Made by a program: the position numbers and the translations under genes
Shown: positions 27,711 to 34,466 of the stretch, piece after piece
Numbering within the stretch: position 1 is the first letter of the stretch
How the letters are laid out: every line of letters starts with the position of its first letter
DNA from: Nitrospira sp.
Lineage (GTDB): Bacteria; Nitrospirota; Nitrospiria; Nitrospirales; Nitrospiraceae
Reading direction: 5' to 3'
Length of the DNA: 64,000 bases
NCBI GenBank assembly: GCA_036984305.1
Contig: BQWY01000001.1
Coordinates: 3,803,501-3,867,500 of the forward strand
The notes under the pieces: generated by a model
The model's input: only the letters and a program-made list of their open reading frames with translations
Database searches by the model: none
Told to the model about the DNA's origin: nothing

Positions 27711-28160
27711 TTACACAGCCCCGACCGACATGAGGAGAATCTCTCCCTTCATATTTGGGTGAATCGAGCACTTGAATTGGTATTCCCCCGGCCGGTGCAA
27801 GGTGAAGCGTACGGTGACCTGCTTACCTCCGTCGAGAAACACTCCGCCGACCGTCTTCCCGTATGCGACCACGCCGCCATGCTCGACATGGGTCAGCGTA
27901 TCCTCGAAAATCATGGATCCGAAATCGTGACGAATCTTGTCCTCGTTCCTCACGTTGATTCGGATGGGGACATTCAACGCGAGCGGAATTTGCTTCGTGA
28001 CAAACATGCTATCCTTGATCGTCACCTCCATCACCTGTTCGCTTTGCGCATCCAGCGGGCTGACCCACCACACAGCGATGAGCAGAAGGCTGCCGCAACC
28101 AAAGACTGCGGCCCCGCGACCATATCGAAGAATCCGCCCCTCCATCCCCTTCATCGTCAT
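27711..28160 (-). CDS. Cupredoxin-domain protein (predicted type 1 copper site)
   Basis: 149 residues with an N-terminal membrane anchor or signal (VFGCGSLLLIAVWWVSPLDA). The cupredoxin fold ends with the copper ligand loop CSIHPNMKGEI (Cys, His, Met), and the first His ligand is in DKIRHDFGS. The set His-Cys-His-Met is complete for a type 1 blue-copper site. Likely a periplasmic electron carrier or copper-binding protein. It sits between two universal stress protein genes (12 bp after one), so it is probably co-expressed with them. The frame opens at ATG 28160; ATGs at codons 3 and 6 are alternatives. Confidence 0.82.
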   Translation of the reverse strand: MTMKGMEGRILRYGRGAAVFGCGSLLLIAVWWVSPLDAQSEQVMEVTIKDSMFVTKQIPLALNVPIRINVRNEDKIRHDFGSMIFEDTLTHVEHGGVVAYGKTVGGVFLDGGKQVTVRFTLHRPGEYQFKCSIHPNMKGEILLMSVGAV

Positions 28161-28172
28161 CGCTCCTTCCTT

Positions 28173-28661
28173 TTACGCCGGTCGCGGCACGGCTCGCGCC
28201 GCCAGCGGAACGGTCAGTACCGGACACCCCGCGGTTCTCACCACCTTTTCAGCCGTACTCCCGAAGAAGATCTTATCTACATGGCCCACCGTGCCTCCGT
28301 AACTACCCATCACCACCAACCCCACCTTCTCCGCACGTGCTAACTTGGCAATCTCGACAAACGGCACGCCTTCCGCAAGCACGCGTCGGATCGATACACC
28401 CTTCGCCTCTTCCAATTCGAGGAATTGACGAGCATGGAGCCGCGCGTGATGACGGAGCCGCTTGATCTGGCCTCGCTCCTCCGATGGAGTCGCGAGCCCC
28501 GCCCGGTTTAACGCGTCCAATGCGCCCCGATCGATGACGTGCAGCAGCAGCACTTCGGAGTGATAGACACGAGCCATGGACAACCCGAGACGCAACGCTT
28601 CCTCGGAGCACGCCGAAAAGTCGACCGGGACGAGAATTCGTTCAAACACGCGCTCTGTCAT
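28173..28661 (-). CDS. Universal stress protein, single UspA domain
   Basis: 162 residues. The domain opens RILVPVDFSACSEEALRLGLS and carries VVMGSYGGTVGHVDKIFFGSTAEKVV. The spacing between the two glycine elements (11 residues) is longer than the usual 9, a possible change in nucleotide binding. The ATG at 28661 is chosen over an ATG at 28679 and the longer frame because a GAGGGG element lies just upstream and the predicted -24/-12 promoter would start transcription about 20 nt before it. First gene of a probable USP-cupredoxin-USP unit. Confidence 0.88.
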   Translation of the reverse strand: MTERVFERILVPVDFSACSEEALRLGLSMARVYHSEVLLLHVIDRGALDALNRAGLATPSEERGQIKRLRHHARLHARQFLELEEAKGVSIRRVLAEGVPFVEIAKLARAEKVGLVVMGSYGGTVGHVDKIFFGSTAEKVVRTAGCPVLTVPLAARAVPRPA

Positions 28662-28693: not shown

Positions 28694-28709
28694 AGCAAAC
28701 AGGATGCCA
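28694..28709 (-). promoter_or_regulatory. Sigma-54 (-24/-12) promoter of the USP-cupredoxin unit
   Basis: Minus strand reads TGGCATCCTGTTTGCT: GG, exactly 10 bases, GC, with flanking TGGCA and TTGCT. This matches the RpoN consensus at all usual core positions. The expected start is about 12 nt downstream of the GC, leaving a short leader before the USP start at 28661. Confidence 0.65.
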
Positions 28710-28945
28710 TCGCACGCATTCGGCACACGTATGAATTCCACTGTGCACGGTCCATTTCACACGACTGGACAAACCACCGATCGTGGTGGGTGGTGTCCTG
28801 CTACAGCCTGGCGAGGAACGGCTGTCGCAATTTGCAACAGCAGGTCACTCTCTTCAGGCTCAGGATCCAAGTTGACGGCCCTCAACCCGGCTCCCATAGC
28901 ACCCTATCCGTGCCGAAGAGCAATCGCTCACAAGCCCGTCTACAG

Positions 28946-28961
28946 GGGCACTTGTTTTGCT
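28946..28961 (+). promoter_or_regulatory. Sigma-54 (-24/-12) promoter of the 31-residue peptide / USP unit
   Basis: GGGCACTTGTTTTGCT contains GG, 10 bases, GC, with GGCAC and TTGCT. The expected start lies about 4 nt ahead of the GGAGGAG Shine-Dalgarno sequence and about 14 nt before the ATG at 28986, a tight but consistent spacing. Confidence 0.6.
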
Positions 28962-28985
28962 CCTTGGATTGCAGCGGAGGAGCCG

Positions 28986-29081
28986 ATGAGCAGAACGCAT
29001 TGGTGGTTGATTGGAGCGATCACCGTCGCGGTCGCGATTGTACTGTACCTCGTGCTGTTCTGCCCGACCGAATGTCACTGA
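28986..29081 (+). CDS. 31-residue single-span membrane peptide
   Basis: A small frame with a strong GGAGGAG Shine-Dalgarno sequence 3 nt upstream of the ATG. The product begins MSRTHWW, runs through one hydrophobic span (LIGAITVAVAIVLYLVLF) and ends CPTECH. The two C-terminal cysteines and the terminal His follow the membrane span, so they may face the periplasm and bind metal or form a disulfide. It is followed by a universal stress protein gene 63 bp downstream on the same strand and probably shares its sigma-54 promoter. Too small for homology-based naming; coding status rests on the ribosome site, hydrophobicity and context. Confidence 0.6.
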   Translation: MSRTHWWLIGAITVAVAIVLYLVLFCPTECH

Positions 29082-29144
29082 GCCAGAGGAGCACGTTGCG
29101 GCCAAGGCAAAGGGATGGACGCAGGTATGGATCAAGGGTGAGCG

Positions 29145-30008
29145 ATGCGAATACTCGTGGCCGTAGATGGGTCGAATTATGCGTACCATGCGGTGCAAGC
29201 CTTGGCACAGCTGGCCCGAGCCGAACAGGTCGCCCTGGTCCATGTTGTCGACGTGCCCGTTCCCGCCTACCCGACGATGATGCCCGAGGTCGCGGGGGAC
29301 CTGTACGCTCGCGCGAAAACCTCAATGGCGGAGCAGGGGAACGACGTGCTTCGGCAGATGCAAGCCGCTTTACCACTGGACACCGGCCCATGCCAGGCAC
29401 GAATTGAATTTGGGCATCCCGCTGACGTCCTCCTCGCCATTGCGCAGGACACCGGCAGCCATCTCATCGTCATGGGGTCGAGAGGCCTGAGTCCAGTGAA
29501 GGAACTGCTTCTCGGAAGCGTGTCCCACCGTGTCGTAGCCCATGCCCCCTGTTCGATCTTGACGATCAATGGCCCCCTTCACTCCATTCGGCACGTTCTG
29601 TTGGCGGTTGAAGAACGGAAGGACGCTGACAAGGCGCTGTCGTTCTTGGCGGCCACCCCATTCCGCACGCGACCGAAGGTCACCTGTCTGACAGTCCTGC
29701 CGTTTTCACCGTTACCATGGCCGGCTGGCGCCGTGATGAGCAAGGAGACGGAGCGGATTCTCGTCGATCAGGGTCGGCAATTCGTGGAGGATGTGGCAAG
29801 ACGATTGGGGGAGCAGGGCTATCTCGCGGTCGCGAAAACGGCCGTGGGCGCCCCTTCCGCTGTCATTCTAGACGAAGCGCGCAAGGCCGCACCAGAACTC
29901 TTGATCGTCGGAACGAAGGGACGACAGGGCGTCGCCCGCTTTGTGCTGGGCAGCGTGTCGCATACCCTGCTCCATCAGACGCCCTGCCCGGTGGTCGTGG
30001 TTCGGTAG
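29145..30008 (+). CDS. Universal stress protein, two UspA domains
   Basis: 287 residues with two UspA domains. ATP-binding signatures are VMGSRGLSPVKELLLGSVSH and VGTKGRQGVARFVLGSVSH. The N-terminus is MRILVAVDGSNYAYHAVQAL. An AAGGGTG lies a few bases before the ATG. It is transcribed divergently from the USP-cupredoxin unit and lies downstream of the 31-residue membrane peptide, together forming a second stress unit that is probably sigma-54 dependent. Convergent with the kinase-like gene downstream. Confidence 0.92.
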   Translation: MRILVAVDGSNYAYHAVQALAQLARAEQVALVHVVDVPVPAYPTMMPEVAGDLYARAKTSMAEQGNDVLRQMQAALPLDTGPCQARIEFGHPADVLLAIAQDTGSHLIVMGSRGLSPVKELLLGSVSHRVVAHAPCSILTINGPLHSIRHVLLAVEERKDADKALSFLAATPFRTRPKVTCLTVLPFSPLPWPAGAVMSKETERILVDQGRQFVEDVARRLGEQGYLAVAKTAVGAPSAVILDEARKAAPELLIVGTKGRQGVARFVLGSVSHTLLHQTPCPVVVVR

Positions 30009-30043
30009 TGAGACTCTCCCATTTTACCCTGACGTCTCGCGCT

Positions 30044-31132
30044 TCACGACTGACAGTACTGGTTGACCTCGGCCGGGTCAAAACGGTCTACCGACAGCAC
30101 GTTGCAAATGAAGTTGAAGAGCTTGCGCCGAACTCCGACCGTGAGATGGGGGTACCACAGCGGGCTCGCGATGACGAGTCCACGAAACGCAAAGAATGGG
30201 GCGGTGGCCTCAAGGACGCCCTGATCCCGGCTCGATTCCAGATACGTTTCCCAGAACTGCCGAAACAACACCTCGAACGGTCCCTTCAAGGTGCCCCAGC
30301 GGCGAAGTGAAAAGAAGAGATAATTAATGCTCATGGAGGTGACGTCGTCAGCCGGTTCCCCCCATTCTCCGCGGGAACGATCCAACAATGAGAATTCCGT
30401 TCCCGTTTTGAACAGCACGTTCCACGGATGAAAGTCCCCGTGTACCTGGCTGAGGCGTCCGGTTCGATTGCGCAGTCGCCACCGCCACCGGTTGCAGTCC
30501 TCCTCGATCGTGCGCAGTAACGCGGTATCGATGAAGCCGAACCGATCGGGGTAACTGTCAGTCAGCCCCATGATGCATTCGCCATGACCGATCAGTTCGC
30601 GGATCCGACGCCGGTAGAGATCGGGGTCCTTGCGCTTGGTCCCGTGGATGGTGGCCAGGTATCCGGCAAGCGCCCTGGCTCGCTTGCGATCCCGTGGCAG
30701 AAGCCGACTGCCTTGCATGAGCCGCTCGAAGTCACGATGGTAGCTCTCCCCCTGGACCCATTCCGTGAGGACAAAAAACTCCTTGGCTGGAGCGACGGAG
30801 AACAACCGGCCCGAAGTCGTAAAGGCACCGACATCCAGCGCTTTAATATGGCGAGGCAATCGACCGTAGGAATCGTAATCCCAGAGCATGGCCTGCGCGC
30901 GATCGGCAGGGTGCTCGTGGCCGAACGGACCCGGGCTCATAGTTTCGAGCACAAAGCTGCGCGGTCGTCCCTTGATTCGGCAGAGCAGCCGAATCGGCTT
31001 TCCATACCCGAACCCCTTGAGGGTCGATTGGGAGGACTCCTGGCCGATCCGCCCATATGAAAGCAGTTCGGATCCGGGACCGAACTGCCGAATCAGGTAG
31101 TCGGCGAGCATCTTCTTCGACAAAGCAGGCAT
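30044..31132 (-). CDS. Phosphotransferase (APH/kinase-like fold) protein
   Basis: 362 residues of the aminoglycoside-phosphotransferase/choline-kinase superfamily. The catalytic loop is VHGDFHPWNVLF (HGDxxxxN, with Asp and Asn), followed by SLLDRSRGEWGEPADDVTSM, where the metal-binding Asp sits in LLDRSR. An N-terminal lobe strand FVLETMSPGPFGHEHPADRAQ precedes. It phosphorylates an unknown small molecule or sugar; this is not evidence of antibiotic resistance. It is transcribed toward the USP gene and divergently from the HPF-CSD operon. A weak GG-N10-GC site 15 bp upstream was judged too close to the start to count. Confidence 0.8.
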   Translation of the reverse strand: MPALSKKMLADYLIRQFGPGSELLSYGRIGQESSQSTLKGFGYGKPIRLLCRIKGRPRSFVLETMSPGPFGHEHPADRAQAMLWDYDSYGRLPRHIKALDVGAFTTSGRLFSVAPAKEFFVLTEWVQGESYHRDFERLMQGSRLLPRDRKRARALAGYLATIHGTKRKDPDLYRRRIRELIGHGECIMGLTDSYPDRFGFIDTALLRTIEEDCNRWRWRLRNRTGRLSQVHGDFHPWNVLFKTGTEFSLLDRSRGEWGEPADDVTSMSINYLFFSLRRWGTLKGPFEVLFRQFWETYLESSRDQGVLEATAPFFAFRGLVIASPLWYPHLTVGVRRKLFNFICNVLSVDRFDPAEVNQYCQS

Positions 31133-31350
31133 CGTGGCATCAAGTACGCAAATCGCATTCCCGCAGCATGGCCAGCTCTCGACCCCAGGGCCCTATGCCT
31201 GGCGCATTGGGCTTCAGGGAAGCGCACCTGAATGGGGAGAAATGCACCACATTGGGAGTTCGTTCCAACCAACCCACCGCACCAGTGTGCCAGGAACGGT
31301 ACGTGCCGCTGGGTTTAGGCCAGACCGACCGCCGAGCCGGAACTGCTTGT

Positions 31351-31366
31351 AGGCATATCCCTTGCT
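31351..31366 (+). promoter_or_regulatory. Sigma-54 (-24/-12) promoter of the HPF-CSD/Lon operon
   Basis: AGGCATATCCCTTGCT contains GG, 10 bases, GC, with GGCA and TTGCT. The expected transcript start is about 31377, giving a leader of about 53 nt before the fusion protein's ATG at 31430. Confidence 0.55.
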
Positions 31367-31429: not shown

Positions 31430-31972
31430 ATGGACCTGGAGATTCAGAGCCGCAACGTCGCCATGACGCCCAGATGGAAAGCAGAAATCGAGCAACGGAT
31501 GGGCGAATTGCATCGAGTGCACGAGAAGATTACTCACGCCCGTGTGACACTCACCAAAAATCGTCATCATAAGCAATTCAAGAATGTCGCCGAGGCAGTC
31601 GTCGTCGTGACCTTTCCAGGGCGGCAGGTCCTCATCGCTCGAAAGGAACACAAGACCTTCGAGGAGGCCATCCGGGCGTCCTTCGACGCCATCAACACGG
31701 AAATCGACAAATTCCGAGACAAACGAGCGAGGAAGACGTTCGACACCGCTCCAATCCCTACACTCCGCGGCGTGATCAGTAAAGTGTTTCCACGGAAAGG
31801 ATACGGATTCATCTTGCCGGAGGGCGGAGGCGAAGTCTATTTTCACAAACACGCCCTGCACGGTCTCACGTTCGAGGACGTGAAGGACGGCGCCGATGTC
31901 GTCTTCAACGTCGAGCCGGGAGAGAAAGGACTCCAGGCTACGACGGTCAACCCCGCACCGACCGTGAAGTAG
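31430..31972 (+). CDS. Ribosome hibernation factor fused to a cold-shock domain
   Basis: 180 residues. Residues 1-105 are an S30AE/HPF-RaiA domain (LEIQSRNVAMTPRWKAEIEQ, KITHARVTLTKNRHHKQFKN, VVVVTFPGRQVLIARKEHKT, EEAIRASFDAINTEIDKFR). Residues about 113-175 are a cold-shock domain (RGVISKVFPRKGYGFILPE with RNP1 KGYGFI, VYFHKHAL as RNP2). HPF inhibits translation by binding the ribosome in stationary phase; the CSD binds RNA. The short linker (KTFDTAPIPTL) suggests a single chain with both activities. The start ATG has an AGGA upstream. It is 1 bp from the Lon-like gene, so they are almost certainly co-transcribed. Confidence 0.88.
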   Translation: MDLEIQSRNVAMTPRWKAEIEQRMGELHRVHEKITHARVTLTKNRHHKQFKNVAEAVVVVTFPGRQVLIARKEHKTFEEAIRASFDAINTEIDKFRDKRARKTFDTAPIPTLRGVISKVFPRKGYGFILPEGGGEVYFHKHALHGLTFEDVKDGADVVFNVEPGEKGLQATTVNPAPTVK

Positions 31973-31973
31973 C

Positions 31974-34466
31974 ATGGCTATGGATGCCGGGAACAAGTTC
32001 GCATTGCCGATTACAGCACTGGTGCCCACCATCGACCCTGATCAATTGGGTTTTTCCGACACGAGCGAGTTGGAGCCGCTCGAAGATCCCATCGGCCAGG
32101 AACGCGCCGTTGAAGCGTTGGAATTCGGTCTGCACATGCCGAACCCGGGATTTCATATCTTTGTCGCTGGACCGACCGGCACCGGGAAGGGCTCGCTCGT
32201 TCGCCGCATGGTGCAACACTTGGCTCGATCCGCCCCAACGGCGCCCGATTGGTGTTACGTGAACAACTTCCTAGATCCGTCCCAGCCGATTCCATTGTCG
32301 TTCTCCGCCGGCCAGGGCCGCGGCTTTCAACAGGCCATGGAGACCTGTGTTCAAACTCTGCGTCGTGACATTCCCGCCATGTTCGAAGGCAAGCCGTATC
32401 TGGATGCGCGGGCAAAGATCTCCGAAGAAACGAGCGCACAGAAAAAGGCACTCTTTCACGAACTCCACGAATTCGGTCGGAAACGCGGATTCGGGTTCGA
32501 GGAATTGCCAATGGGATTCGGGATCGTTCCGTTGAAGGAAGGCCGGCGAATGACCGACGAGGAACTCGAACAATTATCCCAGGGGGAACATGAGGCCATC
32601 GACACGCAGCGGAAAGATTTGGAGAATGAAATCCGAGAATTTCAGGTCCGCATTCACGCGCTCGATCATGAAGCGGAACGTCGCCACCTCGACCTCGATC
32701 GTCAGGTCGCGACGAGAGTGCTTGGAGACCGGTTGGAGCCTCTTCGACAGACCTACGTGGAGATGAGCGAAGTCTGCGCCTATCTCGATCATGTGCGAAC
32801 GGACATCATCGAGCATTACAAGGACTTCCTGCCGCACGAAAAGTCGCCCTTGACCATGGTGGGGTTTGAGGCCGGAGCGCCGAAGCCTAGCCTGACCCGC
32901 TACCGGGTCAATCTATTGGTGGAACATCGGCCGGACGGCGGTGCCCCGGTCGTTGACGAGACGCATCCCACCTATACCAATCTGGTCGGCAAGATCGAAC
33001 GCAAGGCCCATCTCGGGGTCCTTTATACCGATTTTACGGAGATCAAGGCCGGGGCGTTATTGCTCGCCAGTGGGGGTTACTTGATCCTGGACGCCCTGGA
33101 CGTCTTACGTCAGCCGTTCGCCTGGGATGCATTGAAGCGCGCGCTGAAGAGCTGTGAGCTGAAAATCGAAGATGCCGGCGACTTCTTTGGATTTTCCACC
33201 ATCGGCCTGAAGCCTCGGCCCATCCCTGTGAATGTCAAAGTCATCCTAGTCGGGCCACCGGCGTTGTACCAGTTACTCCAAATTTACGAGGCAGACTTCC
33301 GCAAGATCTTCAAGGTAAAGGCCGATTTCGACGTCGACGTGAGGCGCGATGAGCGACTCGATCGCCAGTACGCGCAATTCATCTCCCGTGTCTGTCGTGA
33401 CGAGCGCCTTCCGCCTTTTGGCAAGGATGCCGTGGCCGAAGTGCTCCGTGAAGCCTTTCGGATGGCGGAGCGTCGGGATCGTCTCTCGCTGCGCTTCAGC
33501 CTCATCGGCGATTTGGTGCGCGAAGCGGCCTTCTGCGCACGCCGTGCCAATCGGCCGGTCGTCTCTCGCTCAGATGTTGAAACGGCGGTGGCCCAAAAAC
33601 GCCGCCGGTCCGACATACTCGAGCACTGGGTGCAGGACGAGATTCGAGAGGGCACCTTGATGGTGGACCTGAGCGGGACCGTCGTGGGCCAGGTCAATGG
33701 GCTCTCCGTGCACGTGCTCGGCGACTACGCGTTCGGCAGGCCGTGCCGGATCACCGCGCGTACCTTCATCGGAACCAAAGGCGTTATTGACATCCAACGT
33801 GAGGCGGAGCTGGCCGGGTCTATCCACAGCAAGGGAGTCTTGACTTTGGCTGGCTTTCTCGCTGGGCAATTCGCCGGCACCCATCCGTTCGCCCTAAGTA
33901 GCACGCTGACTTTCGAGCAAACCTACTCCGAGGTGGAGGGCGACAGCGCGGCCGCCGCCGAGCTGATCGCGATCTTGTCGAGTCTGGCCAACGCTCCCGT
34001 ACGGCAGAACTTGGCCATTACCGGATCGATCAATCAATTGGGCGAGATCCAACCCATCGGGGGAGTCAACGAGAAGATCGAGGGATTCTACGAATCCTGC
34101 TCGCGTCGCGGCTTCACAGGCGATCAAGGCGTGATCATCCCCGCGCGCAACATGAAGCATTTGGCGCTCAAACGGGAGGTCGTCGATGCCGTCGCCGCAG
34201 GTCACTTTTCGATCTACGGCGTCAATACGGTTGAGGAGGCGATTGAGCTAATGACCGGGATCCCTGCCGGCGAGTGCGACGAAAACGGACACTTTGCCGA
34301 ACAAACGCTGTACCAACGGGTGGACCTTCGTCTCGAAGACATGGCCGACGTGGTTGCCGAGTGGAGCCAACCGATAGAGGCCGAAGCCCCCGAATCCGCC
34401 TCGCACGACAAGGCAACCATCGTGGGCACGAAGCGGCTGAGCCGGGTGCGTCCACCCCGATCATAA
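31974..34466 (+). CDS. Lon-like ATP-dependent serine protease (AAA_32 / LonB-type)
   Basis: 830 residues. An AAA+ module opens with AGPTGTGKGSL (Walker A, residues 65-75) and contains a long coiled-coil insertion (residues about 145-280). The C-terminal protease domain has the Ser-Lys dyad: Ser658 in VEGDSAAAAELIA and Lys701 in IGGVNEKIEGF, spaced 43 residues as in E. coli Lon. This class lacks the N-terminal substrate domain of LonA and resembles the soluble Lon-like proteases of many Gram-negative bacteria. It degrades misfolded or regulatory proteins with ATP. It directly follows the HPF-CSD gene and precedes the zinc-ribbon gene. Confidence 0.92.
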   Translation: MAMDAGNKFALPITALVPTIDPDQLGFSDTSELEPLEDPIGQERAVEALEFGLHMPNPGFHIFVAGPTGTGKGSLVRRMVQHLARSAPTAPDWCYVNNFLDPSQPIPLSFSAGQGRGFQQAMETCVQTLRRDIPAMFEGKPYLDARAKISEETSAQKKALFHELHEFGRKRGFGFEELPMGFGIVPLKEGRRMTDEELEQLSQGEHEAIDTQRKDLENEIREFQVRIHALDHEAERRHLDLDRQVATRVLGDRLEPLRQTYVEMSEVCAYLDHVRTDIIEHYKDFLPHEKSPLTMVGFEAGAPKPSLTRYRVNLLVEHRPDGGAPVVDETHPTYTNLVGKIERKAHLGVLYTDFTEIKAGALLLASGGYLILDALDVLRQPFAWDALKRALKSCELKIEDAGDFFGFSTIGLKPRPIPVNVKVILVGPPALYQLLQIYEADFRKIFKVKADFDVDVRRDERLDRQYAQFISRVCRDERLPPFGKDAVAEVLREAFRMAERRDRLSLRFSLIGDLVREAAFCARRANRPVVSRSDVETAVAQKRRRSDILEHWVQDEIREGTLMVDLSGTVVGQVNGLSVHVLGDYAFGRPCRITARTFIGTKGVIDIQREAELAGSIHSKGVLTLAGFLAGQFAGTHPFALSSTLTFEQTYSEVEGDSAAAAELIAILSSLANAPVRQNLAITGSINQLGEIQPIGGVNEKIEGFYESCSRRGFTGDQGVIIPARNMKHLALKREVVDAVAAGHFSIYGVNTVEEAIELMTGIPAGECDENGHFAEQTLYQRVDLRLEDMADVVAEWSQPIEAEAPESASHDKATIVGTKRLSRVRPPRS

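Follow-up and report, generated by a model that had tools for sequence, protein, structure and literature searches.

A block of stress genes of the studied Nitrospira genome, encoding universal stress proteins (USPs), a ribosome hibernation factor, and a protease, is predicted to be transcribed from paired σ54 promoters that are activated through a common, conserved two-dyad enhancer of ~52 bp. The enhancers were overlooked by the original prediction. We assign a probability of about 0.88 to the reading that the promoters, the enhancers, their fixed geometry and conservation, the regulon members, and rpoN are as described below, as judged from sequence comparison. The window, i.e., the whole stretch of 64,000 nt that was analyzed, corresponds to C1:3803501-3867500 of the 4.35-Mb genome, and includes the following features of the island:

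27711..28160, minus: cupredoxin-like protein, second gene of the USPc operon (Pfam Cupredoxin_1, E 8e-13)
28173..28661, minus: universal stress protein USPc (Pfam Usp, E 1.9e-28)
28694..28709, minus: predicted σ54 promoter 1, TGGCATCCTGTTTGCT, serving USP-cupredoxin
28788..28840, no strand: enhancer E1 between promoters 1 and 2, dyads 28788-28806 and 28822-28840, spacer 15
28946..28961, plus: predicted σ54 promoter 2, GGGCACTTGTTTTGCT, serving the small peptide and the tandem USP
28986..29081, plus: 31-aa membrane peptide ending FCPTECH, conserved
29145..30008, plus: tandem USP (Pfam Usp, two stretches, E 2.5e-52)
30044..31132, minus: APH-type phosphotransferase, divergent from hpf and kept beside it (Pfam APH, E 2.2e-10)
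31147..31162, minus: probable fourth σ54 site, GGGAATGCGATTTGCG, weak, facing the phosphotransferase gene
31199..31250, no strand: enhancer E2 upstream of hpf, dyads 31199-31217 and 31232-31250, spacer 14
31351..31366, plus: predicted σ54 promoter 3, AGGCATATCCCTTGCT, serving HPF-CSD and LonB
31430..31972, plus: HPF-CSD fusion of ribosome hibernation factor and cold-shock domains (Pfam Ribosomal_S30AE, E 2e-13; CSD, E 2.8e-12)
31974..34466, plus: LonB-like protease (Pfam AAA_32, E 4.4e-50; Lon_C, E 3.2e-9)

The three GG-N10-GC sites of the original prediction were found in the window sequence exactly at the positions and on the strands given for them. They were scored against the consensus TGGCAYRN4TTGCW, which has 11 specified letters plus W and places the GG and GC pairs 10 bp apart. 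Of these letters, 10 are matched by site 1, 9 by site 2, and 10 by site 3 (1, 2, and 1 mismatches), and the GG and GC pairs with the 10-bp spacing are present in the TGGCAYR-N4-TTGCW context at each of them. The end of the GC pair is separated from the ATG by 34 nt at site 1 (USP, 28661), 26 nt at site 2 (small peptide, 28986), and 65 nt at site 3 (HPF-CSD, 31430). The stress genes behind the sites had been correctly named as well, namely USP and cupredoxin, the small peptide and the tandem USP, and HPF-CSD with the LonB-like protease. The fourth site is regarded as only probable, since it is weak and lies very near the annotated start of the phosphotransferase gene.

The strict form of the motif, GGCAYN5TTGCT, has three matches in the window versus 0.20 expected, all of them inside the stress island, and none of 100 dinucleotide shuffles of the window contained three or more. 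Genome-wide counts were obtained by pattern searches with backwards-pattern controls and yielded 49 strict sites versus 20 for the pattern read backwards, so that 3 of the 49 are packed into 2.7 kb. The loose consensus (up to two mismatches) is not enriched in the window (26 matches versus 22.2 expected from shuffles), and its count, being at the shuffle level, was dropped as a proof; thus, the earlier claim that chance predicts well under one site per 64 kb is valid for the strict form only. The possibility that the three sites match the loose consensus only by chance and that the genes use ordinary σ70-type promoters agrees with this shuffle-level count, but we consider it extremely improbable: strict matches exceed chance ~15-fold, the sites are kept at orthologous positions with a geometry tied to conserved enhancers, and the conservation data thereby already contradict it.

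Some of the other strict sites of the genome precede pilin-like, flagellar rod/hook-like, and cytochrome c genes, which are plausible σ54 targets (translations judged by eye). Two similar genes located 3.3 kb apart (C1:1826688 and C1:1829993; L063 and L064) have identical strict sites, GGCATGTGACTTGCT.

Conservation was assessed in Nitrospira and Nitrospirae MAGs from public records, with a family set of 98 genomes; all counts refer to genomes that are related to each other, and some entries repeat a genome. Sixteen HPF-CSD loci of the Nitrospira type were taken, and 14 of the 15 with upstream DNA have a σ54 site upstream of hpf. The USP-cupredoxin/USP arrangement is syntenic in four loci, each of which has a divergent σ54 pair at this place. 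USPc itself was found in 75 of the 98 family genomes, and a σ54 site is located within 500 bp upstream of it in 66 of 74 distinct regions, usually 44-90 nt ahead of the gene start. The enhancer is located farther upstream in at least several of the other eight regions, as if an extra gene intervened. In many relatives (L032:2734-2924, and the same place in L030, L035-L042, and L044), a variable leader lies between the σ54 site and the start of hpf. In it, TCTGGT-like repeats precede their complement; the leader is absent in the window genome and has a predicted fold of -63 kcal/mol (z -4.3) in L032.

The enhancers E1 and E2 are one type of element, formed by two 19-bp dyads CTGNNGC-N5-GCNNCAG located 14-15 nt apart. 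A search for bEBP sites 80-150 bp upstream had been proposed as a check of the promoters, and conserved enhancer-type dyads were indeed found 78, 105, and 100 bp from σ54 sites 1, 2, and 3, respectively. The E1 core between the divergent USP promoters, TGCTACAG-N14-CTGTAGCA, is common to relatives: it occurs with at most one mismatch in 57 of the 98 family genomes, usually once, whereas the backwards control gave no matches. Among the 70 E1 entries read (one a repeat), 69 have an outward σ54 site within 450 bp of the dyad and 55 have two or more; in total, 126 sites around E1 point outward versus 1 inward, and the flanks 600-1400 bp away contain 34. The E2 block upstream of hpf, GCATTGRGCTTCA-N15-MTGRGGARAAATGC, is unlike E1 in appearance; it was found in 50 of the 98 genomes, one in each, with a control of 0, and has one match in the window versus 0.01 expected. 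Of the 45 entries read, in which some genomes are represented twice, 43 have a σ54 site following E2 on the hpf side, mostly at a distance of 95-107 bp, and a phosphotransferase-facing site, often TGGAACRTGAYTTGC-like, is located on the other side in 27 of the 45.

The strong half-sites are the inner ones in E1 and the outer ones in E2. In the outer halves of E1, C14 and C17 are nearly fixed (121/128 and 127/128), and these positions were not used for selection. E1 of the window has a weak outer half and the 15-nt spacer, and E2 of the window has three mismatches to the unified rule given below. Two other assignments were abandoned. One took E2 to belong to the phosphotransferase gene, as its promoter or leader; against this, the distance of E2 to the σ54 site of hpf is kept, and its two-dyad layout is like that of E1. 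The other concerned the palindrome noticed first, CTGTYGCAANTTGCRACAG, which has a single copy in the genome and therefore alone is no regulon motif; relatives show that it is a half of the two-dyad element.

After E1 and E2 had been seen, a unified rule was drawn up that comprises two CTGNNGC-N5-GCNNCAG dyads with a spacer of 14 (52 bp, up to three mismatches). The family-wide search with this rule identified 431 sites versus 154 in reversed sequence (paired test p 2e-12). Twenty new sites, corresponding to neither E1 nor E2, were read; 15 of them have an outward σ54 site within 300 bp and none an inward one (p 3.9e-14), and 14 of 16 distances between dyad and σ54 site fall between 67 and 82 bp. 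The outward orientation at the new sites is an independent test of the enhancer model.

The genome contains seven enhancer sites versus two in the reversed control, and six of the seven are located at 3.83-3.98 Mb; a finer scan of 284 kb revealed further, weaker sites. Enhancers and USP genes cluster in ~150 kb (C1 3.83-3.98 Mb, from the window end to L317), making the stress island wider than the window. The genes next downstream of these enhancers, as members of the predicted regulon, are:

3871990, weak enhancer: USP
3889094: APS kinase, with a P-type cation ATPase farther off
3902065: 101-aa protein, then Hsp20
3915176: DksA/TraR zinc-finger protein
3940464: SoxA/TsdA-type cytochrome c
3949103, weak enhancer: cytochrome c
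3962940: operon with a pyridine-nucleotide-disulphide oxidoreductase
3974546: PEP synthase-like enzyme
3976953: phosphofructokinase

In relatives, E1-type sites precede genes for pyruvate:ferredoxin oxidoreductase, FBPase, dodecin, hemerythrin, and FtsH. The common theme of the targets would be survival with little oxygen or energy.

The proposed mechanism is as follows. RpoN-polymerase would wait at the GG-N10-GC sites before USP-cupredoxin, peptide-USP, and HPF-CSD-LonB, and probably before the phosphotransferase gene too. One activator of the NtrC family would bind the 52-53 bp enhancer as tandem dimers, [CTGNNGC-N5-GCNNCAG]-N13..15-[same], and, being seated between divergent promoters, would open both of them through DNA looping. 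The same enhancer would serve the larger regulon over ~150 kb of the chromosome, a design kept across the family, and the output would be low-oxygen or low-energy survival by means of ribosome hibernation, proteolysis, USPs, and altered electron and carbon flow. A further-reaching reading, to which we give roughly even odds, is that σ54 and one heme- or PAS-coupled NtrC-type activator operate a family-wide master survival regulon in the role that FNR/Anr, DosR, or RpoS have in other phyla; ribosome hibernation, proteases, USPs, electron carriers, and central-carbon enzymes would then be switched on jointly via divergent promoter pairs with one common two-dyad enhancer.

A search of the genome for rpoN, which had been named as a check, revealed one intact gene (a 537-codon frame with the RpoN box ARRTVAKYR and a DNA-binding domain with E 2.9e-58). 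The genome encodes 23 full σ54 activator domains, none of them inside the window. Together with the conservation of the sites and the enhancer dyads, these data support the proposal that RpoN and an enhancer-binding protein control the island, which stays a prediction from sequence. The lone activator within 20-kb stretches around the enhancers, L186, was set aside; it is an L025 ortholog with a long membrane N-terminus, and its distance is 25 kb to the USP enhancer and 6 kb to another, second one.

The slightly favored candidate for the enhancer binder is L009, an NtrC-type response regulator (C1:4017145-4018569, minus), whose kinase may report oxygen or redox state. Its neighbor L022 is an orphan PAS-type activator with a cysteine-bearing PAS-like N-terminus (C1:4012237-4013652). 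The two genes lie a few kb apart and occur together in 29 of the 30 loci read. An enhancer with a σ54 site was found within 14 of these 30 loci, whereas reversed sequence gave 1 of 30. It is usually located 500-750 bp ahead of L022 and in some cases immediately ahead of L009, which suggests that the pair regulates itself; the L022 operon of the studied genome has only weak 4-mismatch enhancer candidates, none with a fitting σ54 site. The recognition helix of L009, LGIDRKTLYRKL, is invariant in 29, but its loop reads GAFTDA or GSFTDA, not GAFTGA, which counts against it.

Protoglobin domains are encoded beside L022 in five genomes of five genera. Two of these proteins were read and are histidine kinases (Pfam E about 1e-42) beside the NtrC/PAS activator pair (L326:1464-2714 and L329:274-1563); one of them matches the globin structure 5ohe, which comes from a globin-coupled histidine kinase, with E 2.5e-15. 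No protoglobin was found in the studied genome, where the kinase carries PAS domains instead, and oxygen sensing is therefore less certain here.

The promoters and enhancers may also stand with L022 as the activator, sensing redox directly, and with L009 only driving the L022 operon or acting elsewhere. The L022 type occurs in 85 of the 98 genomes, has the canonical GAFTGA loop in 19 of 21, and commonly has the enhancer before its gene; moreover, L022 tends to be missing where the enhancer is missing (p 1.2e-6; 0.004 when only genomes of at least 90% completeness are counted). The phylogenetic profile is only weakly informative, since the L022 N-terminus is present in that many genomes, and the draft genome G018 has E1 and USPc but no L022 match. 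L022 is also less conserved across the loci (mostly 55-62% identity) than L009 (72-82%), and we regard its assignment as unlikely. Somewhat less likely still is that another of the 23 activators reads the enhancers and that the signal is, e.g., nitrite or carbon starvation or nitrogen status rather than oxygen. Four small relatives in which the enhancer is retained have five or six activators in common with the studied genome, L006, L011, and L013 being among these, and central-carbon enzymes are among the targets, both of which would suit such a reading; on the other hand, many genomes have enhancers at the L009/L022 locus, as self-regulation predicts, and no such link was found for the other activators, which were examined less evenly.

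The closest known system is NmpRSTU of Myxococcus xanthus. The NtrC-like NmpR binds pairs of GCGCA-N5-TGCGC at σ54 promoters, 14-15 bp apart in 5 of 7 bound promoters; its regulon includes USP, cbb3 oxidase, and hemerythrin genes, a protoglobin kinase stands on top, and the tested promoter rose under hypoxia (PMC11841059). The systems share an NtrC-like response regulator (here a candidate), σ54 promoters, and dyad pairs ~14-15 bp apart (PMC11841059, PMC6211767), as well as self-regulation (here apparent) and regulons in which a USP, hemerythrin, a P-type ATPase, and respiratory genes occur. A protoglobin kinase, which stands at the top of the Nmp system, is encoded beside the candidate pair in relatives from five genera and was not found in the studied genome. 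The paired-dyad layout upstream of σ54 sites was thus found, with 19-mers spaced by 14 (15 in E1 of the window). The binding sequence differs, however: the consensus here is CTGNNGCA-N3-(T/G)GCNNCAG-like, with a GC-N5-GC core that is two bp shorter and has CTG/CAG arms, and since the NmpR sequence was not found, the present system is not classed as NmpR, though working alike. Further differences are that the enhancers serve divergent pairs, that hpf, LonB, Hsp20, and central-carbon enzymes are among the targets, and that the kinase in the studied genome has PAS domains.

The σ54 regulome of Desulfovibrio vulgaris, for which promoters and activator sites were rebuilt comparatively, has similar -24 and -12 elements, tGGcacg and tTGCt, whereas a word search of that paper found no USP or ribosome-related target (PMC4641369). 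The DosR regulon of mycobacteria and the Anr-controlled USPs of Pseudomonas are likewise USP-rich survival regulons for hypoxia or energy stress. The DosR and Anr regulons use σ70-type promoters and not σ54 with remote enhancers.

Much of nitrite oxidation is carried out by Nitrospira-type bacteria, which have to survive both starvation and low oxygen. A full-text search of the literature collection used here for Nitrospira together with σ54 and universal stress protein found nothing, and the family appears to have a single, previously undescribed survival switch with low oxygen or low energy as the probable trigger. The predicted regulon is now concrete and testable, as the enhancer is defined by its exact sequence and is accompanied by its promoters, a few candidate activators, and a probable type of sensor; ribosome hibernation (hpf) is putatively placed under σ54 in this lineage, and the enhancer motif lets the regulon be read from related genomes.

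The 31-aa membrane peptide of the island, MSRTHWWLIGAITVAVAIVLYLVLFCPTECH, has 40 variants among 42 related loci, in which W, GA, Y, and the terminal CPT(E/D)C(H/Q) are nearly invariant; next to the cupredoxin operon, it may take part in chemistry of metals or thiols.
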